Source of the DNA: Streptomyces antimycoticus
Lineage (GTDB): Bacteria; Actinomycetota; Actinomycetes; Streptomycetales; Streptomycetaceae
Length of the DNA stretch: 64,000 nt
Reading direction: 5' to 3'
Assembly (NCBI RefSeq): GCF_005405925.1
Contig: NZ_BJHV01000001.1
Location: 2,852,001 to 2,916,000, forward strand
Both the position numbers and the translations under genes were made by a program. Of the stretch, positions 10,402 to 63,546 are shown in pieces. Below the pieces are notes generated by a model. It saw nothing but the letters and a program-made list of their open reading frames with translations. It did no database searches and was not told the origin of the DNA. Numbering within the stretch: the stretch's first letter is position 1; each line of letters begins with the position of its first letter.

Positions 10402-11933
10402 ATGACGCCGCGCCGCACCTCCCTGCCGCTGCGCACCGCCGCGATACCCGCCGCCATGGCGCTCACCACCGCGCTGGCCTTCCTGCCCACCACCGCCACC
10501 GCTCTCGGAAGGGACGGCCACGCCTCCGCGGCCACCGCGGCCGACGGTCCGTCCCTGAGCTATGTCGTCAACACCCGCCCGGGGCAGGACCCGTCCCGGA
10601 TCCGCGAGGCCATCGCTCAGGCCGGCGGCACGGTCGTCGTGTCGTACGACCGGATCGGCGTCATCGTCGTCCACTCCGCCAACGCGGACTTCGCCAAGAA
10701 CATCCGTAAGGTCCGCGGCGTCTCCTCCGCCGGTAACACCCGCACCGCCCCGCTGCCCGCCCAGTCCACCGACGACATCGACACGCCGAAGCTGCTGAGC
10801 GAGAAGGAGCGGCAGGCGGTGGCGGCGAAGGCCACGGCCGGGCAGGACCCGCTGGAGCCGCTGCAGTGGGATCTGCCGGCGATCAAGGCGGACAAGGCAC
10901 ATGAGAAGAGCCTGGGCAGCCGGAATGTCACCGTCGGGGTCATCGACACCGGTGTGGACGACACCCACCCCGACCTGGCGCCGAACTTCGACCGTAAGGC
11001 GTCCGTCAACTGTGTGACGGGCAAGCCGGACACCACCGACGGCGCCTGGCGGCCGACCGCGGAGGAGTCCCCGCACGGCACCCATGTCGCGGGGGAGATC
11101 GCCGCCGCGAAGAACGGCATCGGCGTCACCGGCGTGGCCCCGGGGGTCAAGGTCTCCGGTATCAAGGTGTCCACGACGGCCGGGTTCTTCTACACCGAGG
11201 CGGTCGTCTGCGGCTTCATCTGGGCCGCCGAGCACGGCGTGGACGTCACCAACAACAGCTATTACACCGACCCGTGGTACTTCAACTGCACCACCGACCC
11301 GGACCAGAAGGCCCTGGTCGAGGCGGTGCGCCGGGCCTCGTCGTACGCGGAGCGCAAGGGCGTGGTCAATGTGGCCGCGGCGGGCAACGAGAACTACGAC
11401 CTGACCTCGGACACCATCACCGACCCCTCCAGCCCCAACGACACCACCCCGGTGAGCGGGAGGTGGACCCGAGCGTCTGCCTGGACATCCCGACCCAGCT
11501 TCCGGGTGTCGTCACGGTCGCCTCGACCGGCGCCAAGACGCTCAAGTCCTCGTTCTCCAACTACGGCCTCGGGATCATCGACATCGCGGCCCCCGGCGGC
11601 GACAGCACCGTCTACCAGAAGCCGGAGCCCCCGGCGACCAGTGGCCTGATCTACAACACGCTGCCGGGCGGGCAGTACGGCTACATGGCGGGCACCTCGA
11701 TGGCCTCGCCGCATGTCGCCGGTGTCGCGGCGCTCGTGAAGAGCACCCATCCGCACGCCTCCCCCTGGATGGTGAAGGCGCTGCTGAAGGCCGAGGCCGA
11801 TGACCTCGCCTGCCCGACGCCGTACGACATCGACGGCGACGGCACGGTCGACGCGGTGTGCGAGGGCGGCAAGCGCTACAACGGCTTCTACGGCGCCGGG
11901 CTCGCGGACGCCCTGGACGCCGTCGAGAAGTGA
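10402..11933 (+). CDS. Secreted S8 (subtilisin-type) serine protease, frameshifted in this sequence
   Basis: Start ATG 10402. The N-terminus is a Sec-type signal (basic '[12 protein letters not shown]', hydrophobic '[16 protein letters not shown]'), then an inhibitor-like prodomain. Catalytic residues are Asp182 ('[13 protein letters not shown]'), His225 ('[10 protein letters not shown]') and Ser433 ('[13 protein letters not shown]'). The frame changes at about 11458: upstream codons lead into 'NDTTPVSG', and the true continuation '[16 protein letters not shown]' lies in another frame. Adding one base restores a 510-residue protease with all three catalytic residues. A sequencing deletion is likelier than a pseudogene, but the gene as given would lose Ser433. 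A hairpin follows the stop. Confidence 0.88.
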
Positions 11934-11949
11934 CCGGCTGACACAATGC

Positions 11950-11986
11950 ACGGGCCGCCGGGGCGGAACAGCCCTCGGCGGCCCGT
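11950..11986 (+). terminator. Hairpin after the subtilase gene
   Basis: An 11-bp perfect stem (11950-11960 acgggccgccg with 11976-11986 cggcggcccgt) and a 15-base loop begin 17 bases after the stop. There is no T tract, as is usual in Streptomyces. Confidence 0.65.
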
Positions 11987-12025
11987 ACGCGTTCCCCCAT
12001 GTAGCGGCGAGAGGACCCCATTCCC

Positions 12026-12547
12026 GTGCACCACGACGCCTCCTGGGGACCGCTGCCCCCGCGGCCGGCCTTCTGGCTGCTGATCCGGTTCGTGCTGACC
12101 GTGCTGCTGCTGCCGCTGTGGTGGGCGCTGATCGTGGTGATCTTCCTCGGCTTCATCGCCTTCGGGATCGTGGCCGAAATCCTTACGGTCATCCCCGGGT
12201 TCGAGAAGGGCTTCCTCGGCCTGATCGACAAGTTCGGGGACAGCGTGGCGGTGTGGCCCGCCTGGTGCGTGACGCTCCCGGAGCTTCGGCACGAGGGCGA
12301 CGCGGCCTTCTACCGGGCCCGGGTCGACAAGCGCATCGCCACCTGGACCAGCAAGGAACTGGCGGCCCAGAAGGCGAAGAAGGCCCCGCCGCCGGGCCCG
12401 CACGACGTCTCCGTGCGCGCGTACCGCGGGGTGGGCGCGGGCTATGTCCTGGAGGCGGCGCGGGCCCGGGGCTGGGAGCTGAGCCATGACCGCCCCTCGG
12501 ACCCGCTGCGGGTGGTCCGGCTGAGGCGGCTGCCCGTCACGGTCTGA
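12026..12547 (+). CDS. Putative membrane-anchored protein of unknown function
   Basis: GTG 12026 begins a 173-residue product. It has a long hydrophobic N-terminal region (residues 16-60, two membrane helices: 'LLIRFVLTVLLLPLWWAL' and 'IVVIFLGFIAFGIVAEIL'). A soluble domain follows, with 'ARVDKRIATWTSKELAAQKAKK' and a C-terminal segment around 'VSVRAYRGVGAGYVLEAARARGWEL'. That last part resembles a small domain for telling protein neighbours apart by surface charge rather than any enzyme I know. The 3' end overlaps the convergent lysoplasmalogenase gene by 11 bases. No function assigned. Confidence 0.75.
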   Translation: MHHDASWGPLPPRPAFWLLIRFVLTVLLLPLWWALIVVIFLGFIAFGIVAEILTVIPGFEKGFLGLIDKFGDSVAVWPAWCVTLPELRHEGDAAFYRARVDKRIATWTSKELAAQKAKKAPPPGPHDVSVRAYRGVGAGYVLEAARARGWELSHDRPSDPLRVVRLRRLPVTV

Positions 12548-13231
12548 CGAGCGCCGGTTCCGGCCCGGGGCGCGGGGCCGCCTCGCGTGTCGCTCCCGCC
12601 ATCAGCAGCCACTGGGCGGCGATATAGGTGGCCATGATCCAGAACTGGGGCACCGGCGGCCGTGGCCAGTCGGCGAGCCCGGCGGCGATCAGGGTGTCGG
12701 AGAGCATGAACAGCGCCCCGCCGAGCCCGGTCCGCGGGCCCGCCCGAGCGCGGCCAGCGCCATGACCGTCAGCAGCAGGCTGTAGCCCGCGACGGGAAGC
12801 CGCAGATCCGCTTCGAGGCCGGGCCACAGCAGCGCCACCGTGCCCAGCCACGCGGCCCCGTACCCGGCGGCCACCCAGGGCGCCGTACGAGGCCGCCCGG
12901 CGCGGGTGAGCAGGACGCCCCGCCCGATGCGGGTGAACACCGTCAGATAGCAGAGGTGCCCGGCCGCGAAGCACCCCATTCCGGCCAGGAAGGCGGTCTC
13001 GCCGCCGATCTGCAGCAGCACGTCGCCGCCACAGCCGCACACCAGCGCGGCGGGGAGCGGCCACGGCCCGCCGCGCACCAGGGCCCAGGCGGCGAGGACG
13101 GGCATCAGGGCGGGCTTGGTGAGGTGGACGACGGTGGTGGCGTCCGCGAGCAGCGCGCCCAGGTGAACGGCGGTCAGCAGCGCGAAGAGGGCGGGCAAGG
13201 CCCTCGTCGCGCGCCCGGCGGCGGCCGTCAC
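12537..13231 (-). CDS. Lysoplasmalogenase (YhhN/TMEM86 family), frameshifted in this sequence
   Basis: Start GTG 13231 overlaps the sterol desaturase stop (GTGA). The product is a membrane protein with about eight helices. The N-terminal two thirds read 'LPALFALLTAVHLGALLAD ... HLTKPALMPVLAAW ... CGCGGDVLLQIGG', the YhhN pattern. The C-terminal part 'LGGALFMLSDTLIAAG' is in another frame, with the switch at about 12740 in a GC-rich run. One added base gives 231 residues. The family hydrolyses the vinyl ether bond of lysoplasmalogens in eukaryotes and some bacteria; the bacterial substrate here is unproven. The pairing with a fatty-acid hydroxylase suggests lipid remodelling. Confidence 0.82.
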
Positions 13232-14232
13232 CGCGCGTTCTCGCCGACCGGCTCCCGCGGCCCGGCCTCCGTAGCCGGCCCGGCCTCCGGGACCGACCCC
13301 GCCTCCGGCGCCAGCCTGGCCTCCGGCGCCGGCCCGGGCTCCGTAGCCGATCCGGCCTCCGTAGCCGACCCGGCCTCCGGGACCGACCCCGCCTCCGGCG
13401 CCGGCCCGGGCTGCCAGCCCGGCCCCATGAAGACCCGGCCCGCCCGCTCGCGCCAGCCCCGCGCCGCCGCGATGTCGCGGGCGATGGCCGCGTACTCGTG
13501 CGTGGCCACCCGCAGCGGGTTGTAGGTGCCGATGTTCTTCGTCAGGCCGTAGACGGGCCGCTCGATCTCGGGGACGAAGGACCCGAAGAGCCGGTCCCAG
13601 ACGATGAGGATGCCCCCGAAGTTGCGGTCCAGATAGCCGCCTTGGGAGGCGTGGTGGACGCGGTGGTGCGAGGGGGTGTTGAAGACGAACTCGATGGGGC
13701 GCGGCAGGGTGCCGATCCGCTCGGTGTGGATCCAGAACTGGTAGACGAGGTTCACCGACGAGCAGAACGCCACCGCCGCGGGGTGCACCCCGAGCGCGAT
13801 CATCGGCACATAGAACGGCCACACGGTCCAGGTGGTCCAGGGCTGCCGCAGGGCGGTGGTGAGGTTGAACTTCTCGCTGGAGTGGTGCACCACATGGCAC
13901 GCCCACAGGATGCGGATGACATGGTGCCCGCGGTGCGACCAGTAGTAGAAGAAGTCCTGGGCGAGCAGCATCAGCGGCAGTGTCCACCACAGCACCGGGA
14001 CGCGTAGCGGGGTGAGTTCGTAGATGGCGGCGTAGATCGCCACAATCGGGATCTTCCACACCAGGTCGAAGACGAGGCTCCCGAGCCCCATGGTGACGCT
14101 GGTCGCGGCGTCCTTCGCCGCGTAGCCCTCGGCGTCGTCGTCGGGATGGAAGCGGTAGCTCACCATCTCCACGACGGTGAGCAGGACGAAGGCCGGTATC
14201 GACCACAGCACGGCATTGGGCAGGTGCGGCAT
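13228..14232 (-). CDS. Sterol desaturase/fatty acid hydroxylase superfamily protein with repeat tail
   Basis: A 334-residue integral membrane di-iron enzyme. Histidine clusters typical of the superfamily are present: 'SHRGHH', 'HVVHHSS' and 'HRVHH', among hydrophobic helices. 'DRLFGSFVPE' is a conserved closing segment. Residues after about 270 form a low-complexity tail of PEAGS/ATEAGS-like repeats that is not part of the enzyme core. It is coupled to the lysoplasmalogenase downstream (GTGA overlap). The reaction is probably oxygen-dependent hydroxylation or desaturation of a lipid; the substrate cannot be read from sequence. Confidence 0.9.
   Translation of the reverse strand: MPHLPNAVLWSIPAFVLLTVVEMVSYRFHPDDDAEGYAAKDAATSVTMGLGSLVFDLVWKIPIVAIYAAIYELTPLRVPVLWWTLPLMLLAQDFFYYWSHRGHHVIRILWACHVVHHSSEKFNLTTALRQPWTTWTVWPFYVPMIALGVHPAAVAFCSSVNLVYQFWIHTERIGTLPRPIEFVFNTPSHHRVHHASQGGYLDRNFGGILIVWDRLFGSFVPEIERPVYGLTKNIGTYNPLRVATHEYAAIARDIAAARGWRERAGRVFMGPGWQPGPAPEAGSVPEAGSATEAGSATEPGPAPEARLAPEAGSVPEAGPATEAGPREPVGENAR
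13238..13425. repeat. Short tandem repeats coding the PEAGS/ATEAGS tail
   Basis: The 3' end of the hydroxylase gene consists of units of the type 'gcctccg(g/t)a(g)cc(g)' repeated more than ten times with variation. It encodes alternating PEAGS, PEAGP and ATEAGS peptides. Such arrays expand and contract by slippage, so the tail length is likely to vary between strains. Confidence 0.7.
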
Positions 14233-14352
14233 GTCCGCAACATAGAACCGCTCGTAAGGCCGCGGCTAGGGGTAGTTACCAACAAGTATGGTAGATGAGA
14301 TGTCAACAACAGGGGTCGCCCAGGAGCGCATGGCCGATTAAGCTCCCCGCCT

Positions 14353-15254
14353 GTGCGTAGAGCCAGAGAACGGTTCCGGACCGGCGGCATAGCCCTCGCC
14401 TGCTTGCTGTCGGCGCTCACCGCGGGGTGTTCCTCCGGGTCGGGCGGCGATGACTCCCCCTCACCCCTGATGGCCGCGGTCGGGCATGTATCGGTCGCGG
14501 GCGCGACGGGAGCCCAGGTCTCCTATCTCGACGCCGATCGGGTGCGCTCGCTGGAGAAGGGCGACTCCCAGCGGTTCCGCACCATCGGCCGGCCGGGCAA
14601 CCCGCTGCTGAGCGGCTACCGCTTCAACGCCCATGCCTACGGCCTCGATCCGGCCATGATCGACACCGATGTGACCAATGGCTACGCCGGGCACTGGGAC
14701 GGCTCCTTCGACGCGGACCGCATCACCGCCAAGCTCAAGGCGGGCGGATTCGCCCGGAGCACCTGGCACGGCGAGACCATCTGGAAGAAGGAGGGCATAA
14801 CCCTCCGGGTCGGCCAGGACGAGCTCTCCTTCGGCTTCGCCGGCAAAGACCTGTCCTCGGTGCGCCCGGCCAAGGGCAAGTCCCTGGCGGACGACCCGGA
14901 TTACCAGGCCCTGGACCGCTGCCTGGGCGATGTCTACCGCGTCGATTTCGGGGGAAGAACGCCAAGAGCGCGGTGCGCCTGTCGGCCACCGGACAGCTCG
15001 CGAAGTCCGCGAAGGGGACATCCGGGGTCATCTGCGCCCTCACCGACGGCAAACGGACCGCCGAGCGCGCCGCCGACCGGCTGAAGTCCGTCATCGGGCA
15101 GCGAGCCCCGCGCTTCGACGGCGCCAAGGTGACCGTTCTCACCGGGGATTCGCCCGGGGTGAAGGTGACGGTGCCCGACCGCCCGGAGGACAAGCGCGCC
15201 GGCCGCCTCCTCACCAGCAACATCGATCTGCAGCTGGCCCTCTCCGACCTCTGA
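14353..15254 (+). CDS. Putative lipoprotein of unknown function, frameshifted in this sequence
   Basis: GTG 14353. The N-terminus 'RTGGIALACLLSALTAGCSSG' is a lipoprotein signal with lipobox LTAGC (Cys26), followed by a serine/glycine spacer. The body has no recognised domain. The frame breaks in the G run 14950-14954 ('ttcgggggaag'): upstream frame ends 'VYRVDFGG' and the continuation 'KNAKSAVRLSATGQLAKSA' is in another frame. One added G gives 300 residues. The 120-base divergent gap to the hydroxylase gene probably carries both promoters. Extracytoplasmic location is inferred from the lipobox. Confidence 0.78.
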
Positions 15255-15355
15255 CCCACCGCCCGGCCCCGACGCCCCGTCAACCCCGGGGCTCCGCCTG
15301 CCCCGACCGGCCCACCGGTCAGGGTTGTCGGCGGCGGCCCGTATCCTCATTGACC

Positions 15356-16342: not shown

Positions 16343-16405
16343 AGTCGGCGCGACGCGCCCGCCCGCCGCTCGCCCGCCACCGCGCGGGCCCGCAATCTGA
16401 GGCAC

Positions 16406-17574: not shown

Positions 17575-19355
17575 ATGGCCCAGCACATCGACGACTACGC
17601 CCTCATCGGTGACCACCAGACGGCGGCCCTGATCAGCCGCCATGGCTCGATCGACTGGCTGTGCCTGCCCCGCTTCGACTCACCGGCCTGTTTCGCCGCG
17701 CTCCTCGGCGGCCCTGACAACGGCCACTGGCGGCTCGCCCCAAGGGCGCGGGCGCCTGCACCCGCCGCGGCTACCTCGACGACTCCCTCGTCCTGGAGTC
17801 GGTCTGGGAGACGGAGACCGGCACCGTCAAGGTCATCGACTTCATGCCGCAGCGCGATCGCGCTCCCGACGTCGTCCGCATCGTCGAGGGCGTCTCCGGC
17901 AGCGTCGAGATGCTCGGCGTCCTCCGGCTGCGCTTCGACTACGGCCGGATCGTCCCCTGGATGCGCCGCACCGACGGCCACCGGATCGCGGTCGCCGGGC
18001 CGGACTCCGTATGGCTGCGCTCGAAGCCCGAGGTCCACACCTACGGCATGGACTTCAGCACCCGCTCCGAGTTCACCGTCTCGGCCGGGGACCGGGTGGC
18101 CTTCGTGCTCACCTGGCACCCCTCCCATGAGCCCCGCCCCCGGCTCGTCGACCCGTACGACTCCCTCCGCTCCAGCCTCGCGGACTGGCGCGACTGGGCC
18201 GCCCGCTGCCGCTACGAGGGCCCCCACCGGGACGCCGTCATCCGCTCCCTGATCACCCTCAAGGCGCTCACCTACGCCCCGAGCGGCGGCATCGTCGCGG
18301 CCCCCACGACCTCACTGCCCGAGCAGCTCGGCGGGGTCCGCAACTGGGACTACCGCTACTGCTGGCTGCGCGACTCCACCCTCACCCTGAACTCCCTGCT
18401 CCGCGCCGGCTACCACGAGGAGGCCGCCGCCTGGCGCGACTGGCTGCTGCGCGCGATCGCCGGCGACCCGGCCGAGCTGCAGATCATGTACGGCCTCAGG
18501 GGCGAGCGCCGGCTCCATGAGCACGAGCTGCCCTGGCTGGAGGGGTACGAGCGCTCCACCCCCGTCCGGGTCGGCAACGGCGCGGTCGACCAGCGCCAGC
18601 TCGACGTCTACGGCGAGGTGCTCGACACCCTCCACCTCGCCCGCTCCGCCGGGCTGCCCGCCGAACCGCACGCCTGGAAGATCCAGACCGCGCTCATGGA
18701 TTTCCTGGAGTCCGCCTGGCGCGACCCGGACGAGGGGCTGTGGGAGGTCCGCGGACCCCGCCGCCACTTCGTCCACTCCAAGGTCATGGCCTGGGTGGCC
18801 GCCGACCGCGCCGTCCGCGCCATGGAGGCCGCCCCCGAGCTGAGCGGCGACGTGAACCGCTGGCGGGACATGCGCGACGCCGTCCACCGCGAGGTCTGCG
18901 AAAAGGGCTACGACCCCGAGCGGTCCACCTTCACCCAGTCCTACGGCTCCTCCGAGCTGGACGCCGCGACCCTGCTCATCCCCCGCGTCGGCTTCCTCCC
19001 CGCCACCGACCCCCGCGTCATCGGCACCATCGACGCCGTGCGCCGCGAACTCAGCGAGGACGGCCTGATCCGCCGCTACACCGCCGTCGACCGCGTGGAC
19101 GGCCTCCCCGGCTCCGAGGGCGCCTTCCTCGCCTGCTCCTTCTGGCTCGCCGACGCCCTCCACCTGGCCGGCCGCCACAAGGACGCCCGCGCGCTCTTCG
19201 AACGCCTCCTCGCGCTCCGCAACGACGTCGGACTGCTCGCCGAGGAGTACGATCCGGCGACCGGCCGGCAGCTGGGCAACTTCCCCCAGGCGTTCAGCCA
19301 TATCGGCCTTGTGGGGACCGCCCTCACCCTCGCGGAGCGGCCCAGGGCAGACTGA
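17575..19355 (+). CDS. Glycoside hydrolase family 15 protein, frameshifted in this sequence
   Basis: ATG 17575 begins '[20 protein letters not shown]', typical of the actinobacterial GH15/trehalase-like family. The frame changes in the C run 17738-17741 ('gccccaag'); one extra C rejoins 'HWRLAP' to '[20 protein letters not shown]'. The repaired protein has 593 residues, normal for the family. The (alpha/alpha)6 barrel signatures '[20 protein letters not shown]', '[12 protein letters not shown]' and '[15 protein letters not shown]' are present; the general acid/base glutamates are expected in those segments. Members include glucoamylases and mycobacterial trehalases, so the substrate is an alpha-glucoside, possibly trehalose. 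Confidence 0.88.
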
Positions 19356-20960: not shown

Positions 20961-21673
20961 TCACCCCTTCGACTTCGCCGACCGCCGGACACGGACGGAC
21001 AGGGCGGGCCGCCGGGCCAGGCCCAGTTGCCGGATGCCCTCGTGGAGGGCGGCGTCCAGATCCGCCCGTACCTCGTCGAGATCACGGAAGTGGGCCAGCG
21101 CACGGGCCCTGACCCGCCGACGGCCGACCTCCACGCGGGCGGACCGCACACCGGGCACCTCCATCGCCCGGTCCCGCAGCACCAGACCCGCCGAGGTCCG
21201 GTCGATCCCCGCCCGTACGGCGACCCCGGCGCCCGCCCCGGCCCCGGCGCCCGCCTCCACGCCCTTCCCCGACCCCGCCTCAGCCCCGGCTCCGCCTCCG
21301 GCGGACGCATCGGGAGCAGCCCACGCAGCCCCGGCGCCAACGCAAGGACCACCATCCACACCCCCAGCGCGGCCAACAGCGCCGCCCCGCCCATGACCCA
21401 CGCGTCGTCCAGCGGCCGCGAGGCGAGTTCGTCGGCGAGCCATTCCCGCCACCGCATGGCGGGCCTGCCCGAGCGCACGGCCGCCACGTCGTACAGCAGC
21501 AGCCCGCTGATGGCGGCGATGACCAGGGCGACGATCCCGGCCGGTACCCGCCGCACGGACCAGAATCGCCTGATGCGCCCGGGCGGCGGATCGCCGTCCC
21601 CGGCACCCGTCCGAGCCCTCCCGCCGTACGCCGACGCCGAGGTGGACTGACGCATCTTCTGGTCCGCGTTCAT
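20961..21673 (-). CDS. DUF6286 membrane protein with Asp23-like C-terminus, frameshifted in this sequence
   Basis: ATG 21673 overlaps the upstream Asp23 stop (ATGA). The first frame gives 'IRRFWSVRRVPAGIVALVIAAISGLLLYDV' and a second helix 'GGAALLAALGVWMVVLALA'. After about 21301 the protein continues in another frame with a glycine/alanine linker, then 'RAMEVPGVRSARVEVGRRRVRARALAHF', resembling the Asp23 beta-strand core. One added base yields 237 residues. The deletion sits in a GC-rich low-complexity linker. Probably another membrane anchor or scaffold for the envelope-stress proteins encoded beside it. Confidence 0.75.
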
Positions 21674-23154: not shown

Positions 23155-23888
23155 GTGGTCACAGACCGGCTCGCGCAGACCGTAAGGGAGCAGCTTCTGC
23201 TCGGACGGCTGCTGCCCCTGGGTGGGCGGGAGGACGGCTCCTGGATCACCGAACACGCGGCGGGCGAGGTGCTCCGGCGGGCCGCCGACCAAGTCTCCGC
23301 CGCACACCTGGGAGCGCTTCGGATCGCGCCCGCCGACCCCGACACCGCCGCGACGCCCGCGGTACCGCCCCCGCCGAGCGCGCTGCCGCCGGGAACGCTG
23401 CGCATCGCGGCGGAGTGCGGGGCGACGCTGGAGGAACCGCTTCCGGTGACGGCGGACCGGCTGCGCGACGTACTCCTCGACGCGGCGACGGACCGGCTGG
23501 GCCTCCTGGTGGAGGCGGTCGACGTACGGGTGACGGACGTGCTGGACGAACTCCCGCCACCGCCCCCAGCGACCCCGCGCCCCCACCAACCCCAACCACC
23601 ACCACGGCCGACGTCGGGGAACGCCCCGACCCGGACCCCGCCGCGACTGCCGCCCGCACCGCCACCTCCGTCCCCGGCGTCGCCCGGCTCGCGCCGGTGC
23701 TGGGATCGCCCCGGCCCGTGCGGATCGAGGGTGCGCACATCCGGATCGAACTGGCCGTGGCGGCGGATCACCGCGCCGTGGATGTGGCGCGGGCGGTGCG
23801 AACGGCGGTGGCACACGCCGTCTCGATCCCGGCGCCCGGAGACCAGCCGCCCACCGTGGCCGTCCTGGTCACCGCCGTGGACCCCTGA
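23155..23888 (+). CDS. Asp23-cluster associated protein, frameshifted in this sequence
   Basis: Start GTG 23155 follows 'aagggg'. The first half reads 'VTDRLAQTVREQLLLGRLLPLGG' and 'RLGLLVEAVDVRVTDVLDEL', a divergent Asp23-like strand pattern. A proline-rich linker follows, and a second Asp23-like half, 'GAHIRIELAVAADHRAVDVA', continues in another frame. The switch is at about 23560 in a run of C; one extra base gives 244 residues with two Asp23-like halves. It is divergent from the main cluster. Function unknown beyond its association with envelope-stress genes. Confidence 0.72.
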
Positions 23889-24434: not shown

Positions 24435-28871
<4,437 letters not shown>

Positions 28872-40262: not shown

Positions 40263-41246
40263 ATGCGTGCCGATCACGCCTCGTTCGCGTGCGGTGCGGC
40301 CCTCGGCTTCCTCGGTGATCTCGCCACGGGCGATCCGCGCCGCGGCCATCCGGTCGCCGCGTTCGGGCGCGCCGCCGCGGCCGCCGAGCGCCGGCTGTGG
40401 CGTGACCACCGCGGTTACGGGGCCCTGCACACCGTGTTGTGCGCGGGCGGCGCGGCCGCCGGTGCCGCGCTGCTGACCCGTGTCGTACGGGCCCTCGGCG
40501 GGCGCGGCGGCGCGGAGGCCGCGCTGACCGCCGCCGCCACCTGGGCCGTGCTGGGCGGGACGACGCTGGGCCGTGAGGCACGGGCCGTCGGCGGGGCCCT
40601 TGCCGCGGGTGACCTCGACGTCGCCCGGGAGCGGCTGCCGCATCTGTGCGGCCGCGATCCGCAGGCGCTGGACGGGCCGCAGATCGCCCGCGCGGTCGTC
40701 GAATCGGTCGCCGAGAACACCTCCGACGCCGTCGTGGGCGCGCTGGTGTGGGGCGCCGTGGGCGGCGTGCCGGGGCTCATCGGCTTCCGCGCCATCAACA
40801 CCCTGGACGCCATGGTGGGCCACAAGTCGCCGCGCTACCGGCGGTTCGGCTGGGCGGCGGCCCGTCTGGACGATGTGGCCGGCTGGCCCGGTGCGCGCCT
40901 TACGGCGGCCCTGGCGACACTCGCGGGCCCCGATCCGCGCGGTGCGCGGCGCGCCTGGCGGCACGACGGCCGGCGCCATCCGAGCCCGAACGCGGGCCCC
41001 GTGGAAGCGTCGTTCGCGGGCGCGCTCGGGATACGGCTGGGCGGCACCCTCACGTACGGCGGCCGGGTCGAGCACCGGCCGGTGCTCAACTCCGGCGGGC
41101 GGCCGGTGGAGTCGGCCGACATCGAGCGGGCGATACGGCTGTCGCGGCGCGTCGGCGTCCTGGCGCTCGGGGTGTCCGTGGCGGCCCGGCCGGTCCTGAG
41201 GGCGTTGACGGGGCGGCCCCGGGCCTTGGGAAGGGGCGGTGGATGA
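40263..41246 (+). CDS. cbiB: Adenosylcobinamide-phosphate synthase CbiB/CobD
   Basis: A 327-residue membrane protein that attaches the aminopropanol (phosphate) arm to adenosylcobyric acid. The N-terminal 'GAALGFLGDLATGDPRRGHPVAAFGR' is the CbiB signature. Also present are 'ARAVVESVAENTSDAVVGALVWGAVGGVPG' with helix-breaking glycines, split here into its two blocks, and 'YRRFGWAAARLDDVAGWPGARL'. The final 80 residues hold 'HPSPNAGPVEASFAGALGIRLGG'. ATG 40263; the stop overlaps cobQ (ATGA). It is the first gene of the riboswitch-led cobalamin operon. Confidence 0.95.
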   Translation: MRADHASFACGAALGFLGDLATGDPRRGHPVAAFGRAAAAAERRLWRDHRGYGALHTVLCAGGAAAGAALLTRVVRALGGRGGAEAALTAAATWAVLGGTTLGREARAVGGALAAGDLDVARERLPHLCGRDPQALDGPQIARAVVESVAENTSDAVVGALVWGAVGGVPGLIGFRAINTLDAMVGHKSPRYRRFGWAAARLDDVAGWPGARLTAALATLAGPDPRGARRAWRHDGRRHPSPNAGPVEASFAGALGIRLGGTLTYGGRVEHRPVLNSGGRPVESADIERAIRLSRRVGVLALGVSVAARPVLRALTGRPRALGRGGG

Positions 41247-42870
41247 GCGGGATACGCGGTAAGGGCGGCACGGACGGTTCCGGGGCGCGGGGCGGGGCCT
41301 GCTCGTCGCGGGCACCACCTCCGACGCGGGCAAGAGCGTCGTGACGGCCGGGATCTGCCGGTGGCTCGCCCGTAAGGGCGTCAGCGTGGCCCCCTTCAAG
41401 GCGCAGAACATGTCGCTCAACTCCTTCGTCACCCGGGAGGGGGCGGAGATCGGGCGGGCGCAGGCCATGCAGGCCGCCGCCGCGCGCGTCGAGCCGAGCG
41501 CGCTGATGAACCCGGTCCTGCTGAAGCCGGGCAGCGACCGCAGCAGCCAAGTGGTGCTGCTGGGCAAGCCGGTGGGTGAGCTGAGCGCGCGCGGGTACTT
41601 CGGGCGATCGGGTCCCGCGGCGAACCCGCCGTCGGACGCGGACTCCCCCGGGCGGACGCGGTCATTGGGGCGGGAGGCGCTGCTGGGGACCGTCACGGAG
41701 TGCCTGGAGGAGCTGCGGCGCACCCATGACGCGGTGATCTGCGAGGGCGCGGGCAGTCCGGCCGAGATCAATCTGCGCCGCACCGACATCGTCAACATGG
41801 GGCTGGCGCGCGCCGCCGGGCTTCCGGTCGTGGTGGTCGGGGACATCGACCGCGGTGGCGTCTTCGCGTCCTTCTTCGGCACCACCGCGCTGCTGTCGGC
41901 GGCGGACCAACGGCATGTGGCCGCCTATCTGGTGAACAAGTTCCGCGGCGATGTGAGCCTTCTGGAGCCCGGTCTGGACATGCTGCGCGACCTCACCGGG
42001 CGCCCGACCGTCGGTGTGCTCCCGTTCGCCCACGGGCTGGGGATCGACGAGGAGGACGGGCTGCGGGTGTCGCTGCGCGGCACGGTGCGGGAGAGCGTCG
42101 TCGCGCCCCCTTACGGCGCGGACGTCCTGCGGATCGCGGTGGCCGCCGTGCCGCTGATGTCCAACTTCACGGACGTGGACGCGCTGGCGGCCGAACCGGG
42201 CGTGGTCGTGCGGTTCGTGGACCGGCCTGAGGAGCTGGCCGACGCGGATCTGGTGGTGCTGCCGGGCACCCGGGGCACCGTAAGGGCGCTGGAGTGGCTG
42301 CGCGAGCGCGGGCTCGCCGACGCGATCGCCCGGCGGGCCGCCGAGGGCCGCCCGGTGCTGGGCGTCTGCGGCGGCTTCCAGGTGCTCGGGGAGCGCATCG
42401 AGGACAAGATCGAGTCGAAGGCCGGGACGGTCGCCGGGCTCGGGCTGCTGCCGGTGCGGGTACGGTTCGCGGCGGAGAAGACCCTGGCCCGGCCGGTGGG
42501 CGAGGCGCTCGGTGAGCGGGTTGAGGGATACGAGATCCACCACGGGGTCGCCGAGCTGCTCGACGGGGCCGAGGAGCCCTTCCTGGACGGCTGCCGGGTG
42601 GGCTCGGTGTGGGGCACCCACTGGCACGGCTCGCTGGAGAGCGACGGCTTCCGGCGGGCGTTTCTGCGCCGGGTGGCCGCCGCGGCGGGCCGGGCGTTCG
42701 TACCGGCGCCGGACACCCGCTTCGGCGAGCTGCGCGAGGAGCAACTGGACCGCCTCGGCGACCTGATCGAGGAGCACGCCGACACCGACGCACTGCTGCG
42801 GCTCATCGAGAAGGGCGTCCCGGAGGGGCTGCCGTTCGTCCCTCCGGGGGCGCCAGGGGGGACGTCGTGA
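41243..42870 (+). CDS. cobQ: Cobyric acid synthase CobQ, frameshifted in this sequence
   Basis: ATG 41243 overlaps the cbiB stop, but its frame runs into '[11 protein letters not shown]'; the P-loop '[18 protein letters not shown]' is in another frame that has a stop at 41260 and no start codon between. Adding one G in the run 41294-41298 joins the two and gives 542 residues, the normal size. The glutamine amidotransferase half has Cys376 ('[11 protein letters not shown]') and the histidine segment '[10 protein letters not shown]'. CobQ amidates cobyrinic acid a,c-diamide to cobyric acid using glutamine and ATP. The stop overlaps a 22-codon frame that leads into the chelatase gene. Confidence 0.93.
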
Positions 42871-42934: not shown

Positions 42935-45085
42935 GTGACCACCACCTACCCCTTCAGCGCGATCGTCGGCATGGACGGTCTGCGGCTCGCCCTGCTCCTC
43001 AACGCCGTCTCACCCGCCGTGGGCGGCGTCCTGGTGCGCGGGGAGAAGGGCACGGCCAAGAGCACCGCCGTAAGAGCGATCGCGGCGCTGCTGCCGCCGG
43101 TCGACGTGGTGGCCGGGTGCCGGTTTTCCTGCGATCCGGCCGCACCCGACCCGTCCTGCCCGGACGGGCCCCATGAGCCGGACACCGGCGAGGCGCGCCC
43201 CGCGCGGATGGTCGAACTGCCCGTGGGCGCCTCCGAGGACCGCCTGGTCGGCGCCCTCGACATCGAGCGGGCGCTGTCGGACGGGGTGAAGGCGTTCGAG
43301 CCCGGACTGCTCGCGGACGCCCACCGCGGGGTGCTCTACGTCGACGAGGTCAACCTGCTCCACGACCATCTGATCGACCTGCTGCTCGACGCGGCCGCCA
43401 TGGGCGCCTCCTACGTGGAGCGCGAGGGGGTCTCCGTACGGCATGCGGCGCGCTTCCTCCTTGTCGGCACCATGAACCCGGAAGAGGGCGAGCTGCGGCC
43501 GCAGTTGCTGGACCGCTTCGGTCTCACAGTGGAGGTCGCGGCGTCCCGGGACACCGATGAGCGGGTCGAGGTGGTGCGGCGGCGGCTGGCGTACGACGAG
43601 GACCCCGAGGGGTTCGCGGCGCGCTGGGCGGCGGACGAGGACGCCCTGCGGGAGCGCATCGCGGCGGCGCGCGCCCTGCTGCCACGGGTGGGGCTGGGCG
43701 ACCGTGCGCTGCGACAGATCGCGGCGGTGTGCGCCGGGTTCGAGGTGGACGGGATGCGCGCGGACATCGTGACCGCCCGTACGGCGACCGCGCTGGCCGC
43801 CTGGGCCGGGCGCACCGACGTGCGGACCGAGGACGTCCGGGGGGCGGCGCTGCTGTCGCTCCCCCACCGCCGGCGGCGGGCCCCGTTCGACGCGCCGGGG
43901 CTCGACGAGGACAAACTCGACGAGATCCTGCGGCAGTTCGAGGAGGACGAGCCGGAGCCGGATCCGGACCAGGGCCCGGAGGGCCCCGACAGCTCCGACG
44001 ACGGGCCGGACGGCCCGGGCGGCCCCGAGAACCCCGGCGGCGGGCCCCAGGAGGACGCGGGCGACGGAGCGGGGGAGCAGGCGCCGCCCACCGCACCCGA
44101 GCCGTCCGTCCCCGACCAGCGCACGGGTGAGCACGAGACGGCCGACCGCGAGACCGACTCTCCCCAGGCCGATGGCGACGGCGGGGCGGGAGAAGCGGAC
44201 GGTGGTAGTGGTGGAGCCGGCGGTGACCGGGCGGCCGTGGGCGCCGCCGAACCGTTCCGGACCCGGCGGCTCGACGTCCCCGGTCTGGGCGAGGGCGCGG
44301 CCGGACGTCGGTCGCGCGCCCGCAGCGAGCACGGCCGCGCCACCGGGGCGCGCCGCCCGCGAGGGACGCTCTCCGCGCTGCATCTGACGGCGACCGTCCG
44401 GGCCGCCGCCCCGCACCAGCGGTCGCGCGGGCGGCGCGGTCCCGGGCTCCTGGTGCGCCGGGACGATCTGCGCGAGGCGGTGCGCGAGGGCCGGGAGGGC
44501 AATCTCGTGCTGTTCGTGGTGGACGCGTCGGGCTCGATGGCCGCGCGGACGCGGATGAGCGCGATCAAGGGCGCGGTGCTGTCGCTGCTGCTGGACGCCT
44601 ACCAGCGGCGGGACAAGGTCGGGTTGATCACCTTCCGGGGCGCGGACGCCGAGCTGGCGCTGCCGCCCACCTCGTCGGTGGATGCGGCGGCCGTGCGGCT
44701 GGAGCGGCTGCCGACGGGCGGCCGTACACCGCTGGCGGCCGGGCTGTTGAAGGCGCGGGAGGTGCTGCGGGTGGAGCGGCTGCGGGATCCCTCACGCCGT
44801 CCGCTGCTGGTCGTGGTGACCGACGGACGGGCCACGGAGGCGCGGCGGTCCGGCGGGCCCACGCCGGTCGAGCGGGCCGGGCGCGCGGCGCGGATGCTCG
44901 CGGGCGACGGGGTCGCCTCGGTGGTGGTGGACTGCGAGTCCGGGCTGGTGCGGCTGGGGCTGGCGGGCGCGCTCGCCCGCGAACTGCGGGCCACGCCGGT
45001 GACACTCGACGAGCTGCGCGCGGACAGCGTGACCGCGCTGGTGCGCGATGTACGAACCGTATCGAACCCTCGGAGGGCCGCCTGA
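42935..45085 (+). CDS. Magnesium/cobalt chelatase-type ATPase with fused VWA domain (ChlI-ChlD-like)
   Basis: A 716-residue protein from GTG 42935, with 'aggagg' upstream. The N-terminal AAA+ domain (to about 310) has Walker A '[10 protein letters not shown]', Walker B '[10 protein letters not shown]' and '[20 protein letters not shown]'. An acidic/proline-rich linker (about 325-480, rich in 'PDGPGGPEN'-type repeats) follows. The C-terminal von Willebrand A domain has the MIDAS motif DASGS at about residue 530. It would drive metal insertion as the ATPase of a CobN-type cobaltochelatase, but no CobN gene is present in this window. A 22-codon frame (42870-42938) overlaps its start. Confidence 0.9.
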
Positions 45086-57847: not shown

Positions 57848-57879
57848 TCGCCGCCGTGCGCTGAGCTGACGTCCGTGAT

Positions 57880-57920: not shown

Positions 57921-57927
57921 ATGGCCG

Positions 57928-57994
57928 CGTGCTGGCCCCGGTCCGGCCGCGTGCTGGCCCCGGTCCGGCCCCGTGCTGGCCCCCGGTCCGGCCC
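57928..57994. repeat. Three tandem copies of a 22-bp unit
   Basis: Copies begin at 57928, 57950 and 57972, with unit cgtgctggccccggtccggc plus two bases. The third has an extra c. It lies between the ectD terminator and the end of the aminotransferase gene; no function is evident. Confidence 0.9.
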
Positions 57995-57999
57995 CGGTC

Positions 58000-59052
58000 T
58001 CAGCGGGACAGCTCCTCCAGCAGCCGGTCCACATCGGCCGCCGTGTTGTACAGGTGGAAGGAGGCGCGGAGGTTGCCGGCCCGCGCCGAGACATGCACAT
58101 CCGCCTCCGCCAGCCGGGACGCGGCGTCCCCCAGCCCCGGTACGGAGACGATGGCCGAGCCGGGGGCGGCGACGGGCTGGTGGCCGAGCCCGATGACCCC
58201 GGCCCGGAAGCGGTCGGCGAGCGCGCGGTCGTGGGCGGCGATGGCCTCGGTGCCCAGCTCCTCGATCAGCGCGAGGGAGTGCCGGGCCGCCACGTAGGAG
58301 TACACGCTCGGGCTCTCGTCGAAGCGGCGGGCGGAGTGGGCGAGTTCCGCCACCGGTCCGTAGCAGCTGTCCCAGGGCTTCTCGCCCGCGACCCAGCCCG
58401 CGAAGACGGGGGTGAGCTCGCCCAGGTCCTCGGGGACGGTCAGGAAGGCGGCCCCGCGTGGGCACATCAGCCACTTGTACGCCACGCAGACGGTGTAGTC
58501 GGCCTCGTCGGCGTTCACCGGGAACCAGCCGGCCGCCTGGCTGGTGTCCACCAGGGTGCGGGCCCCGTGGGTCCGGGCCGCCTCCGCGATGGCGTCGAGA
58601 TCGGCGATCCGCCCGTCCGCGGACTGGACCGCGCTCACGGCCACCAGCGCCGTACCGGGCCGTACCGCCTCCGCGATCTCCTCCAGCGGCACGATGCGCA
58701 GCTTGAGGTCGCCGCGGACGGCGAAGGGGTTGACCAGGGAGCTGAAGTCGCCGTCGGCGAAGATGACTTCGGCTCCGGACGGCAGCGAGGTGGCGATCAT
58801 CCCCGCGTAGACGGCGACCGAGCTGCCGGCCGCGACCCGCCGCGCCGGTACGCCGACGAGCCGGGCATAGGCGGCCCGGCTCTCCTCAACCGCCTCGAAG
58901 GCCGCGTCGACGATGGGCCGTCCGGCGGCCGAGCCGTCGAGGACCGCCTTCACGGCGGCCACGGAGCGTGCGGGGATCAGACCGCTGGACGCGGTGGTGA
59001 GATACGTCGTGTGTGGCGCGAATTCGGCGCCTGCCAGGCTCTCCATGTCCAT
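58000..59052 (-). CDS. Class V aminotransferase-fold PLP enzyme
   Basis: A 350-residue protein from ATG 59052. The PLP site is Lys193 in 'CVAYKWLMCPRGAAF', with 'TLVDTSQAAGWFPVN' before it as the Asp/Gln cofactor contacts and 'YLTTASSGLIP' at the N-terminus. This is the cysteine desulfurase/kynureninase-like class V fold. There is no active Cys loop, so a sulfur role is unlikely. It is convergent with ectD; a link to ectoine metabolism is not shown by the sequence. Confidence 0.88.
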   Translation of the reverse strand: MDMESLAGAEFAPHTTYLTTASSGLIPARSVAAVKAVLDGSAAGRPIVDAAFEAVEESRAAYARLVGVPARRVAAGSSVAVYAGMIATSLPSGAEVIFADGDFSSLVNPFAVRGDLKLRIVPLEEIAEAVRPGTALVAVSAVQSADGRIADLDAIAEAARTHGARTLVDTSQAAGWFPVNADEADYTVCVAYKWLMCPRGAAFLTVPEDLGELTPVFAGWVAGEKPWDSCYGPVAELAHSARRFDESPSVYSYVAARHSLALIEELGTEAIAAHDRALADRFRAGVIGLGHQPVAAPGSAIVSVPGLGDAASRLAEADVHVSARAGNLRASFHLYNTAADVDRLLEELSR

Positions 59053-59295
59053 CCACTATGGAACCGGCTCACCCCGGCGTCCATCGCGTTTCCCTGTCGG
59101 GTGCCTTCAAGGGAACCTTATGGATCCCCGCTGACCTGCGGCGATCCCCATGCCTGGCGCGGCGCCCGGGTGAAAGCGCCGGCGGATCGGCCGAAAAAGA
59201 CCCCGGGGGCCGCAGGCGGCCGCGGGCATGCCGACACGGCCGCCGGAACCGCGGGTCAGGTCCGCGGGTCCGGCGGCCGCGCCGTCGGTCCAGGG
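59053..59295. other. Intergenic region upstream of the aminotransferase gene
   Basis: It contains the likely aminotransferase promoter ('gggaaccttatggatcc' around 59113-59128). No gene was recognised. The right part leads into the 35-bp repeats. Confidence 0.45.
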
Positions 59296-59396
59296 CTTCA
59301 GCGGTGCTGCTCCCGGAGGGCCTTCCGGGGCTTCAGCGGTGCTGCTCCCGGAGGGTCTTCCGGGGGTTCAGCCGCGCTGCTCCCGGACGCCGTTGA
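59296..59396. repeat. 35-bp tandem repeats at the 3' end of the aldehyde dehydrogenase gene
   Basis: Two copies (59296 and 59331) and a third degenerate copy (from 59366) share cttcagcggtgctgctcccg and 'gagggccttccggg'. The third copy includes the dehydrogenase stop and last codons, so the outer copies look like duplications of the gene's end beyond the stop codon. Confidence 0.9.
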
Positions 59397-60903
59397 TCCG
59401 CCGGGGCAGCTCCAGCGGGTTCTCGTCCCGCAGCTCCGGCGGCAGCAGGGCGGCCGGGGTGTCCTGGTAGGCGACCGGCCGCAGCCAGCGCTCGATGGCG
59501 GTGCCGCCGACCGAGGTGGAGGTGGAGGTGGTGGCCGGGTAGGGGCCGCCGTGGTGCTGGGCCGGGGCGACGGCGACACCGGTCGGCCAGCCGTTGACCA
59601 GGACCCGGCCGGCCAGCGGGGTGAGCTCGGCGATCAGCGCGCCGGCCCGGCCCTCGGTGCCCTCGCCCTCGGCGGCGGAGATCTGGACGGTGGCGGTGAG
59701 GTTGCCCGGGAGCCGGCCGAGCACCGCGCTGATCTCCTCGTCGCTCTCGTAGCGCGCCACGACGGTCACCGGGCCGAAGCACTCCTCCAGCAGCACATCG
59801 TGCGGGCCGTCCTCGGCGAGCCGCCGCGCCGGGACGGTGAGGAAGCCCGCGCTGACCGTGTGCTCACCGCCGGAGCCGGGGGTGACCGGGGCCTCCACAT
59901 CCGCCAGTTCGGCGCGCTCCTTGACCCCGGCGACGAAGTTGTCCCGCATCCGGTGGTCGAGCAGGACGCCCGCGTCGGTGTTGCTGACCGCGTCGGTGAG
60001 GGACTTCACCAGGCCGTCGCCCGCCGGTCCTGCCGGGGCCAGCACAAAGCCGGGCTTGGTGCAGAACTGGCCCACGCCCAGCGTCATGGAGCCCGCGAGC
60101 CCCGCGCCGATCTGGTCGCCGCGCTCGGCGGCCGCGGCCTCGGTGACCACGACCGGGTTGAGGCTGCCCAGCTCGCCGTGGAAGGGGATCGGCACCGGCC
60201 GGGAGGCCGCCGCGTCGTGCAGGGCGCGGCCGCCGCGGACCGATCCGGTGAAGCCGGCGGCGGCGATCAGCGGATGCTTGACCAGCTCGATACCCGCGTC
60301 GAAACCGTGCACCACCGCGATCACCTCGGCGGGCACCCCGACCCGCTCGGCGGCGCGGCGCAGCGCGGAGGCGGCCACCTCGGAGGTGGCGGGGTGGTCG
60401 GGGTGGGCCTTGACGACGACCGGGCAGCCCGCGGCGAGGGCGCTGGCGGTGTCGCCGCCGGGCACGGAGAAGGCGAGCGGGAAGTTGCTGGCGGCGTAGA
60501 CGGCGACGACGCCGAGCGGCAGCTTGTAGCGGCGCAGATCGGGCCAGGGCGGGGTCTGGGTGGCGTCGGCGTGGTCGATGCGGACGTCGAGGAAGGCACC
60601 CTCGTCCACGATGGTCGCGAAGGCCCGCAGCTGGTAGGTGGTGCGCGCGAGTTCGCCGGTGAGCCGGGCGGGGCCGAGCGCGGTCTCCGCGTCGGCGGCC
60701 TCGACCAGCTGGTCACGGGCCTCGTCGAGGAGATCGGCGGCGGTGCGCAGCAGGGCGGCGCGCACCGTACGGTCGGCCAGGGAGCCGCGGGCGGCGTGGG
60801 CCGCGCGCACCACGCGGTCGACCTCCTCCGCCGTGGCTTCGACCGCTACCTGCTCCCGCTGCTTTCCGGTTCGGGGGTCGACGCTCCACACTGGTGCTGA
60901 CAC
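59368..60903 (-). CDS. Aldehyde dehydrogenase, 2,5-dioxovalerate/ketoglutarate semialdehyde type
   Basis: A 511-residue NAD(P)-dependent enzyme from GTG 60903 with 'aggagg' upstream; an open frame to 60951 was excluded. Catalytic Cys281 is in 'GVGQFCTKPGF', Glu244 in 'FHGELGSLNP', and 'YAASNFPLAFSVPGGD' is the conserved phosphate-binding region. The pattern resembles alpha-ketoglutarate semialdehyde dehydrogenases used in sugar-acid or hydroxyproline catabolism. The divergent IclR gene (135 bases away) probably regulates it. Confidence 0.92.
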   Translation of the reverse strand: MSAPVWSVDPRTGKQREQVAVEATAEEVDRVVRAAHAARGSLADRTVRAALLRTAADLLDEARDQLVEAADAETALGPARLTGELARTTYQLRAFATIVDEGAFLDVRIDHADATQTPPWPDLRRYKLPLGVVAVYAASNFPLAFSVPGGDTASALAAGCPVVVKAHPDHPATSEVAASALRRAAERVGVPAEVIAVVHGFDAGIELVKHPLIAAAGFTGSVRGGRALHDAAASRPVPIPFHGELGSLNPVVVTEAAAAERGDQIGAGLAGSMTLGVGQFCTKPGFVLAPAGPAGDGLVKSLTDAVSNTDAGVLLDHRMRDNFVAGVKERAELADVEAPVTPGSGGEHTVSAGFLTVPARRLAEDGPHDVLLEECFGPVTVVARYESDEEISAVLGRLPGNLTATVQISAAEGEGTEGRAGALIAELTPLAGRVLVNGWPTGVAVAPAQHHGGPYPATTSTSTSVGGTAIERWLRPVAYQDTPAALLPPELRDENPLELPRRINGVREQRG

Positions 60904-61038
60904 CGCGGATTCCTCCTGCTGTGGTGTTACCGCTGCTTGCGTCCCACACATCGACGGTGTTCGATATGCTGAACGCTGTCCCGGGTGATGAATTTCCCCT
61001 CGGGACTCTATGGCTGGTCGAACAGAGGGGTCAAGGCG

Positions 61039-61809
61039 ATGTCAGCTGCCGAGACGGGCGGGGCCCAGGTCAAATCGGCTGTCCGCACGGTCGAACTGCT
61101 GGAGTTCTTCGCCGGGCGGCCCGGAATGCACAGCCTCGCCGCGGTCCAGGAGGCCGTGGGCTATCCCAAGTCGAGCCTCTACATGCTGCTGCGCACCCTG
61201 GTGGAGCTCGGCTGGGTGGAGACGGACGCCACCGGCACCCGCTACGGCATCGGGGTGCGCGCCCTGCTCGTCGGCACCTCCTACATCGACGGCGACGAGG
61301 TCGTGGCCGCCGCCCGCCCCACCCTGGACCGGCTCTCGGACGACACCACCGAGACCATCCACCTCGCCCGACTCGACGGCACCAACGTCGTCTATCTCGC
61401 CACCCGGCAGTCGCAGCACTATCTGCGCCCCTTCACCCGCGTCGGCCGCCGGCTGCCCGCCCACTCCACCTCACTGGGGAAGGCGCTACTGGCCACGTAC
61501 TCCGACGAGCAGGTGCGCAAGCTGCTGCCGGAGACGCTGGGCCAGCTCACCGAGCACACCATCACCGACCGCGAGAAGCTGATCGAGGAGCTGCACCTGA
61601 TCCGGGAGCAGGGGTACGCGGTGGACCGCGAGGAGAACACCCTGGGCCTGCGCTGCTTCGGCATCGCCATCCCGTACCGCACCCCCTCGCGCGACGCCAT
61701 CAGCTGCTCGGTGCCGGTCGCCCGGCTCACCCCCACCCATGAGCAGATGATCAAGGACGCCCTGTTCGACGCCCGGGACCGGCTCACCCTCGCGACGCGA
61801 CGTCTTTGA
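61039..61809 (+). CDS. IclR family transcriptional regulator
   Basis: A 256-residue regulator from ATG 61039; an upstream GTG/ATG at 60985 is also open. The N-terminal winged helix contains 'VKSAVRTVELLEFFAG' and 'YPKSSLYMLLRTLVELGW'. The C-terminal IclR effector domain has 'RVGRRLPAHSTSLGKALLA' and 'NTLGLRCFGIAIPYRT'. Because it is divergent from the aldehyde dehydrogenase, it likely controls that gene in response to a catabolic metabolite. Confidence 0.94.
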   Translation: MSAAETGGAQVKSAVRTVELLEFFAGRPGMHSLAAVQEAVGYPKSSLYMLLRTLVELGWVETDATGTRYGIGVRALLVGTSYIDGDEVVAAARPTLDRLSDDTTETIHLARLDGTNVVYLATRQSQHYLRPFTRVGRRLPAHSTSLGKALLATYSDEQVRKLLPETLGQLTEHTITDREKLIEELHLIREQGYAVDREENTLGLRCFGIAIPYRTPSRDAISCSVPVARLTPTHEQMIKDALFDARDRLTLATRRL

Positions 61810-61901
61810 CCCACGGGAGGACGGCCCCTCCGCCGCGCGGCGGAGGCGGATCGTCGGGCAGGGTGAGGCGCGGCGCCCGCCGCGCCGCGAGGCTGGTCCC
61901 C

Positions 61902-62288
61902 GTGACCCACACCCTTTCCGGCTCCCGGACGCGTCCCGCGCCCGCCCGCTCCCCCGGTGACGCCGCCGGGCGGATCCTGCGGGCCGTCGCGATCCTCGCC
62001 TGTCTGCCGTACATCGGCCTCATGGTCGCCTTCCGCGCCGGGCGTCCGGTGCGCTTCGCCCTGCCGCTGAGTCTGGCCTGTGTCGGCTCCGCGGCGCTCG
62101 CCTGCTGGGGCGGCTGGCTCCTCCTGACCGGGCTGACCGCCCAGAACGCCGCCAAGGAGCCGACCGCGCTGATGAATCTGACCTACGCTGTGCAGATGAC
62201 CGTCGGATTGCTCGTCCTCACGGCCGGCGGGCGCTTCTTCCGCGAGCGCGGCTTTGCCGGGGGCGCGGCAGCGTACCGAGCTTCGTGA
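61902..62288 (+). CDS. Small membrane protein of unknown function
   Basis: A 128-residue protein from GTG 61902. A Pro/Arg-rich N-terminus leads to about three hydrophobic segments ('AILACLPYIGLMVAF', 'LSLACVGSAALACWGGWLLL' and 'QMTVGLLVLTAG'). The stop overlaps the kinase start by 4 bases (GTGA), so it is coupled to the two-component genes and may be part of the sensor or its target. Confidence 0.75.
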   Translation: MTHTLSGSRTRPAPARSPGDAAGRILRAVAILACLPYIGLMVAFRAGRPVRFALPLSLACVGSAALACWGGWLLLTGLTAQNAAKEPTALMNLTYAVQMTVGLLVLTAGGRFFRERGFAGGAAAYRAS

Positions 62289-63546
62289 CCGGGGCGTGGT
62301 GGCGGCGGGCGGTCCGTGCGGTGGCCGGCCGCCGGGCCCAGCTGCGCTGGGTCCATCTGGTGCTCGGCGGCGCCCTGTTGATGCCGTATTACCTGCTGAC
62401 CGGCGTCGTCTTCTCGATGCTCCTCCAGGACGCCGTGCCCTTCACCTCCCTGCCGTGGCAGCTGGGCACCTTCGCCACGGCCCTGCCGCTGGCCGTGCCG
62501 ACCGCGCTGCTCCCGCTGGTACGGCCCCTGGAGGCCACCGCCGCCCGCTCGCTGTGCGGGCTTCCGGAGTCCGCGGAGCTCGCGGCCGGGCCCGCCGGGT
62601 CGTGGGACGCGCGCGCCCGCACCTTGCTCTGGTACGGGCTGCATCTGGCCATCGGCGGGCTGGTCAGCGGGCTCACCCTGTCCCTGCTGCCCGCCTCGGC
62701 ACTGCTGGTCGCCCTGCCGTTCACCGACGGTTCGTACGCCGACGAGGGCTGGCCGCACGCCTTCGCCTCGGCCCCCACGCGCTGGCGCCCTTGGCCGGGG
62801 TGCTGCTGCTGGGCGTGATCATGGGGATCGCCGCGGCCGCCGGGGCGCTGCTGGCCCGCTGTGCGCCCGAGCTGCTCGGCCCGGCCCCCGCCGAGCGGCT
62901 CGCCGCCGCCGAGCAGCGGGCCACCCGGCTGGCCGCCCGCAACCGGCTCGCCCGCGAGCTGCACGACTCGGTCGGCCATGCGCTGAGCGCGGTGACCCTC
63001 CAGGCGAGCGCGGCCCGTAAGGTCCTCGACACCGATCCGGACTTCGCCCGGGAGGCGCTGGCGGCCATCGAGGAGACCACCCGGGACGCGGTCGGCGAAC
63101 TCGACAGCGTGCTCGGCCTGTTACGCGAAGGGGAGGACCGTCCGGCCACCGCCCCCTCCCCCACCCTGATGGATCTGGACGGGCTGCTGGCCCGCACCCG
63201 GGCCGCGGGCGTCGCCGTCGAGCTGACGGCCCCGGGCTCGCTGGACCGGCTGCCGCCCGTCGTCTCCCGCGAGGCGTACCGCATCGTCCAGGAGGGGCTC
63301 AGCAACGCGCTGCGCCACGCGGGCCGGGTGCCGGTGCGGCTCCGGATCGCCGAGGACCCGAAGAAGGTGGAGATCACGATGGAGAACCCGGTGAACGGAG
63401 CCGCCCGGGCACGGCCCACCGGCGGCGGCCGCGGGCTGCGCGGCATCGCCGAGCGGGCCACCCTGCTGCGCGGCACCTGTGCGTGGGACACCGTGGACGG
63501 CGTCTGGCGGCTGACGGTCCGGCTCCCGCTGGAGGCGTCCCGATGA
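62285..63546 (+). CDS. Sensor histidine kinase (NarL partner type), frameshifted; contains a TTA codon
   Basis: GTG 62285. Hydrophobic N-terminus with about four helices ('WVHLVLGGALLMPYYLLTGV', 'ALPLAVPTALLPLV', 'LAIGGLVSGLTLSLLPASAL'). A single-base deletion in the C run 62772-62776 moves the rest to another frame; adding C gives 420 residues. HisKA_3 is 'NRLARELHDSVGHALSAVTLQASA' (two blocks around the phospho-His), and the HATPase part has 'EGLSNALRHAG' and 'GRGLRGIAERATLL'. A TTA codon is at 63121-63123, so translation may depend on bldA. Coupled to the response regulator (ATGA). Confidence 0.88.

Follow-up and report, generated by a model that had tools for sequence, protein, structure and literature searches.

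Ten single-base frame breaks in nine genes of a Streptomyces antimycoticus assembly: residual homopolymer error as their probable source

In this study we analysed a 64,000-nucleotide stretch of the Streptomyces antimycoticus genome assembly, called the window below (positions 2,852,001-2,916,000 of a 10.9 Mb contig; the assembly comprises 11.17 Mb in three contigs), in which ten breaks interrupt the reading frames of nine genes. An original prediction, made from this DNA by itself, had described each break as the loss of one base and explained all of them as uncorrected consensus errors rather than pseudogenes. We aligned the window base by base with up to four near relatives, including a sister genome (G392), an outgroup (G173), G063 and G368, with a DNA identity to the window of 94-98% at the GH15 gene. 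Reading frames were followed with a homology-free hidden Markov model (HMM) of codon periodicity. The ten breaks are present in the window sequence and, in-frame gaps aside, one base is missing at every one of them.

The first break falls in a C run at 11447..11450 in a subtilase (Peptidase_S8) gene on the plus strand, where the window is one base shorter than all four near relatives. The HMM calls a deletion at 11454, and PF00082 matches both pieces of the gene. On the minus strand a short C run at 12743..12745 (HMM 12733) interrupts a YhhN (lysoplasmalogenase family) gene, again one base short against four of four relatives; PF07947 matches the intact YhhN protein of the sister. The third site is a G run at 14948..14952 (plus strand; HMM 14951) with a length difference of 1 modulo 3 in the three covered comparisons. 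A GH15 gene on the plus strand, matched by PF00723 and PF19291 in the Pfam scan, lacks one base relative to 4/4 relatives in a C run at 17738..17741 (HMM 17741). In a DUF6286 gene on the minus strand the PF19803 match is divided between two frames, with the break in a C run at 21290..21296 (HMM 21282); three of four relatives differ there by 1 modulo 3, the exception being G063, which differs by +15 at 21293 in what is a variable Pro-rich stretch. The sixth break lies at 23615..23620 (plus strand; HMM 23553) and shows a difference of 1 modulo 3 in all four relatives.

A hybrid kinase gene on the minus strand, with HAMP repeats, GAF, HisKA, HATPase_c and receiver domains according to Pfam, carries two breaks: one in a G run at 26433..26437 (HMM 26424) and one in a C run near its N-terminal end at 28688..28691, each with a difference of 1 modulo 3 in 4/4 relatives. 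In cobQ, on the plus strand, a G run near the start of the gene (41294..41297; HMM 41277) is one base short against all four relatives. The ATG of the relatives' frame corresponds to window position 41243, and the break lies upstream of the stretch GTTSDAGK, which we take to be the P-loop. NF001989 and TIGR00313 match the CobQ protein of the sister, and the full-length CobQ proteins of the relatives are at most 99% identical to the CobQ piece found here. The last break is a C run at 62774..62778 (plus strand; HMM 62777) in a HisKA_3 sensor kinase gene with a PF07730 match, one base short against the three covered relatives.

As had been predicted for the breaks that could be placed exactly, the sites lie in G or C runs: a run of four or five touches the gap at nine of the ten, and 12743 has a run of three. 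Most of the predicted positions held as well, but the gap in the sixth gene aligns at about 23618 instead of 23560, the subtilase gap belongs to the C run at 11447-11450 and the DUF6286 gap lies at about 21293. The gene labels were borne out by Pfam or NCBIfam matches except for two. For the putative lipoprotein gene of the third site neither the Pfam nor the NCBIfam scan gave a match, and the Pfam scan gave none for the putative Asp23-like gene of the sixth.

How firmly do the alignments show that the frames break in the given sequence? Over about 200 bases around each site the length difference between relative and window was 1 modulo 3 in all covered comparisons except that with G063 at 21293 (37 of 38). 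Two of the 40 comparisons, G368 at 14952 and 62774, were uncovered. The comparison with homologous genes of related species, which had been proposed as a check, thus came out in favour of missing bases. Across nine sites the frames of the near relatives are open in all 34 covered comparisons. At the cobQ site all four near relatives report a stop, because the test interval starts in another gene's frame; the cobQ frame of G392 is open for 226 codons ahead of the site. The HMM called deletions near nine of the ten sites (the miss being 28691) and no frame shift in the relative in 36/38 covered comparisons, the exceptions being G063 at 21293 and G368 at 41294. It made two further calls in the window, at 45052 and 48540; as neither place has a private indel, we take them for gene overlaps. 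Among eight more distant relatives, 15 of 32 alignment rows have open frames that switch frame at the subtilase, lysoplasmalogenase, GH15, DUF6286 and Asp23-like genes, at the lysoplasmalogenase gene in one relative only. Another four rows touch cobQ with an upstream shadow frame, and the remaining 13 lie elsewhere.

It might be argued that the cell itself makes use of the breaks, with full-length proteins restored by programmed ribosomal frameshifting or polymerase slippage. Most sites do lie in runs, where slippage could occur, and both gene halves are kept. However, the frames of the near relatives are unbroken at these positions, and therefore no conserved recoding site is present; the nine genes here and the others broken elsewhere have only a G/C run in common. 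We consider this explanation exceedingly improbable.

A different question is whether poor coverage or mis-assembly affected the window alone while the rest of the genome is clean. A stretch of 17 kb holds eight of the ten sites, and ten deletions in an assumed 54.6 coding kb are mildly above the rate outside (Poisson p = 0.028), in a window that was picked for its breaks. A three-way comparison of this assembly with the sister G392 and the outgroup G173 puts window and surroundings on the same footing. It takes only private indels of one or two bases, with 'coding' assigned by the HMM, and covers the window and 16 outside chromosome stretches of 20 kb each. Two of the 18 chromosome stretches (L047, L049) had no G173 partner and were left out, as were the two stretches L062 and L063 of the small contigs, stretches L192-L195 and a further set of stretches. 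Seven of the ten window sites enter the coding count (21293, 23618 and 28691 are excluded). On this like-for-like count the window, with 7 deletions in 51.7 kb, shows no difference in rate from the outside, with 19 in 211.9 kb (p = 0.33). Outside, at least one private coding deletion turned up in 10 of 16 stretches, and the chromosome core also yields HMM calls. A purely local fault is accordingly very unlikely.

The same comparison reveals a strong direction. Private coding one-base indels in this assembly are 26 deletions but only 2 insertions (263.6 kb; binomial p = 3e-6), as against 3 and 3 in 219.7 kb of G392 and 2 and 6 in 215.1 kb of G173. Outside coding sequence, where indels are tolerated, the three genomes lie closer together, with 36 private deletions and 12 insertions here, 34 and 24 in G392 and 25 and 36 in G173. 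The coding deletion rate amounts to 0.099 per kb (95% interval 0.064-0.145). Extrapolated to the genome this would mean about 950 coding deletions (95% interval 620-1,400), a figure that assumes the sampled stretches to be typical and counts in a few natural changes among the 26. Two members of the count deserve a remark: the deletion at 3892 of L061 corresponds to sequence that the sister carries as non-coding, and the one at 5581 of L060, which sits just before a family match, could lie ahead of its gene. Family scans were made for 24 of the 26 deletions with 20 intact proteins of the relatives, the subtilase gene being scanned as window pieces.

In a separate observation, three private one-base deletions (L050:17950, 18494 and 19229) fall in one gene for a molybdopterin-binding oxidoreductase of the aldehyde or xanthine dehydrogenase type.

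The HMM, applied to single genomes, called 35 deletions and 12 insertions in 400 kb of this genome. For another 480 kb, which include the chromosome core, the figures were 42 and 14. The near relatives, at 80 kb each, gave 1 and 1 (G392), 2 and 1 (G173), 3 and 1 (G063) and 2 and 2 (G368). Among the control genomes, deletions and insertions numbered 14 and 6 (G012, 220 kb), 6 and 1 (G007, 200 kb), 2 and 2 (G006, 80 kb) and 3 and 0 (G002, G004, G005 and G011 together, 80 kb). In G009 there were 26 deletions and 15 insertions in 220 kb, with 26 of these 41 calls in a single 20-kb stretch. That stretch (L071, G009:C1:200001-220000) lies near the chromosome end, and its 26 frame-shift calls can be read as decayed sequence, odd composition or G009's own errors. 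These counts lean in the direction of the three-way comparison, though less clearly. Since the HMM also flags gene overlaps and calls events in controls, our conclusion rests on the three-way comparison.

If the deletions arise from miscalled homopolymers, their frequency should follow run length. We examined G/C runs of equal length in G392 and G173 whose four neighbouring bases on either side were identical. Among runs with an ancestral length of 3, 4, 5, 6 and 7 bases, those one base shorter in this assembly numbered 3/5960, 1/1414, 7/317, 7/28 and 0/1, respectively, and one conserved-flank run was longer. G392 showed no run shorter by one or two bases in the same test (n=6377); one run of five differs there by an amount that was not tabulated. 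Six-base G/C runs are also scarcer here, with 212 per Mb versus 275-412 in five comparison sets. Private coding deletions follow this pattern: of 26 in all, 19 touch a run of at least four G/C bases (as counted in this assembly), two lie one base off and five lie further away. Private substitutions are not in excess, with 541 here and 645 in G392 over 58,264 sites.

Real mutations have to be weighed against these data. The breaks could be recent pseudogenes that arose by slippage in G/C runs, for example in a mutator or in a culture kept for long in the laboratory. Slippage, too, depends on run length, and some of the 26 deletions may be natural, above all the five that lie away from runs. Gene by gene, genuine frame-shift pseudogenes look identical to what we describe. 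They should, however, include insertions as well, show later decay and avoid essential single-copy genes, and the evidence here is the opposite on all three points. Almost no +1 events were found (26 deletions against 2 insertions, and the one lengthened run), and some 950 deletions of this kind by extrapolation would have to be accommodated. A mutator strain in particular was ruled out by the private substitutions, which are not raised.

As to later decay, the GH15 gene is the one gene that could be compared with an identical intact protein. A complete protein of 593 amino acids (P0005), encoded on other contigs of which the longest has 9,534,215 bases, is 100% identical over the 538-amino-acid piece, which bears no further damage. 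Over the window taken together, private substitutions give no sign of relaxed selection either. As to essential genes, the original prediction had relied on CobQ. This argument is weaker than was assumed, for cobalamin synthesis is not strictly essential, but the kind of argument is carried strongly by SecY. We scanned 20 pieces from 19 hand-picked breaks among 56 HMM events in 480 kb, and NCBIfam matched nine of the 20 with an E value of 1e-40 or below. Broken-gene pieces in the core stretches match GuaA (GMP synthase), NADH-quinone oxidoreductase subunit M, SecY and others. For SecY and GuaA we searched the whole genome with the family models, and SecY we also aligned to relatives. For SecY the search gave two matches, the halves of one gene in two frames, and nothing else. 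The break sits at a shortened G run that is one base longer in all five relatives compared, and the third base of a glycine codon at this run is G, C or T in relatives. One base is likewise missing from another G run, just ahead of the gene (the two runs lie at L245:6007-6012 and L245:6672-6677, or G000:C1 ~6,046,010 and ~6,046,675). The guaA gene stands in two abutting frames at L234:6421 (G000:C1 ~4,766,420), with no other match above the family cut-off in the genome. Bacteria are not expected to survive the loss of SecY. As the only SecY match is split, a real mutation is hardly possible there, and for the breaks in general we judge real mutations most unlikely. One could still suppose that the short runs are real and that hundreds of frame breaks in G/C runs, the one in secY included, are rescued by polymerase or ribosome slippage; this strikes us as barely credible.

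We therefore favour, with a probability of roughly 97%, the explanation that the breaks are residual homopolymer errors of an incompletely polished, probably long-read assembly and do not belong to the organism. Direction bias, run-length dependence, privacy together with genome-wide spread, and hits on indispensable genes were all found, and each is expected of homopolymer consensus error. The view of the original prediction is upheld in this respect by the one-sided shortening of runs, its dependence on run length, its spread over the genome, its absence from sister and outgroup, the normal substitution counts and the split SecY. In the process that we propose, the consensus step would have called some G or C runs, mostly those five or six bases long, one base short. 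In a GC-rich, gene-dense Streptomyces chromosome this would put a -1 frame break into an estimated one gene in ten. The affected genes would be otherwise kept because the real cell carries them intact. A single contig of 10.9 Mb suggests long-read data, probably polished too little with accurate reads. The strain's own reads would be expected to show the runs at full length.

Several observations weigh against this explanation. What we compared are assembled sequences, not reads. Five of the 26 private coding deletions lie away from any run of at least four bases, and three of the 26 fall in a single gene with RHS repeats, a likely place for natural change. A private substitution is found within nine bases at five of the ten window sites (11456, 12734, 14946, 28698 and 41298), about three times background; possibly these are natural changes that lengthened the run, as may have happened at the glycine codon in secY, a reading that seems likelier to us than hairpin-linked errors or template switching. 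The HMM by itself separates this genome incompletely from the controls, as the counts for G009 and G012 illustrate. Finally, the genome is listed at 99.98% completeness.

The phenomenon is an ordinary assembly artefact that is already known, seen here in a GC-rich genome. In bacterial assemblies made from long reads alone, errors in homopolymer length are described as the most common kind that remains (PMC8812927). The present case resembles those errors in the shortening of runs by one base, the genome-wide occurrence and the normal substitution counts, and it differs in that mostly G/C runs of 5-6 are affected, in a genome of 71% GC. A 2025 study of gene-fragmenting errors places deletion errors after runs, those of four to five bases being the most frequent; in one of its examples, annotated pseudogenes fell from 23.3 to 5.6% on correction (PMC12007338). 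Its tool Kastor recognises false pseudogenes caused by indels through comparison with related genomes, much as was done here, and there too deletions come mostly after runs of 4-5. In contrast to our G/C runs, A/T runs are the commonest in that study, at 59% GC (PMC12007338). None of the literature matches listed named S. antimycoticus.

The value of these findings lies in a warning and in a measured error rate. The rate by run length offers a simple test for other GC-rich assemblies. Completeness of 99.98% beside about 950 extrapolated false coding deletions illustrates that such a score is blind to errors of this kind. The protein collection that we searched already contains a truncated GH15 protein of 503 amino acids (P0028), recorded from a contig with exactly the length of this one. 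If about one gene per kb is assumed, pseudogene counts, pathway calls and claims of missing genes would be wrong in an estimated one gene in ten. In the living cell, judging from the sequence comparisons, the affected genes are almost certainly intact.

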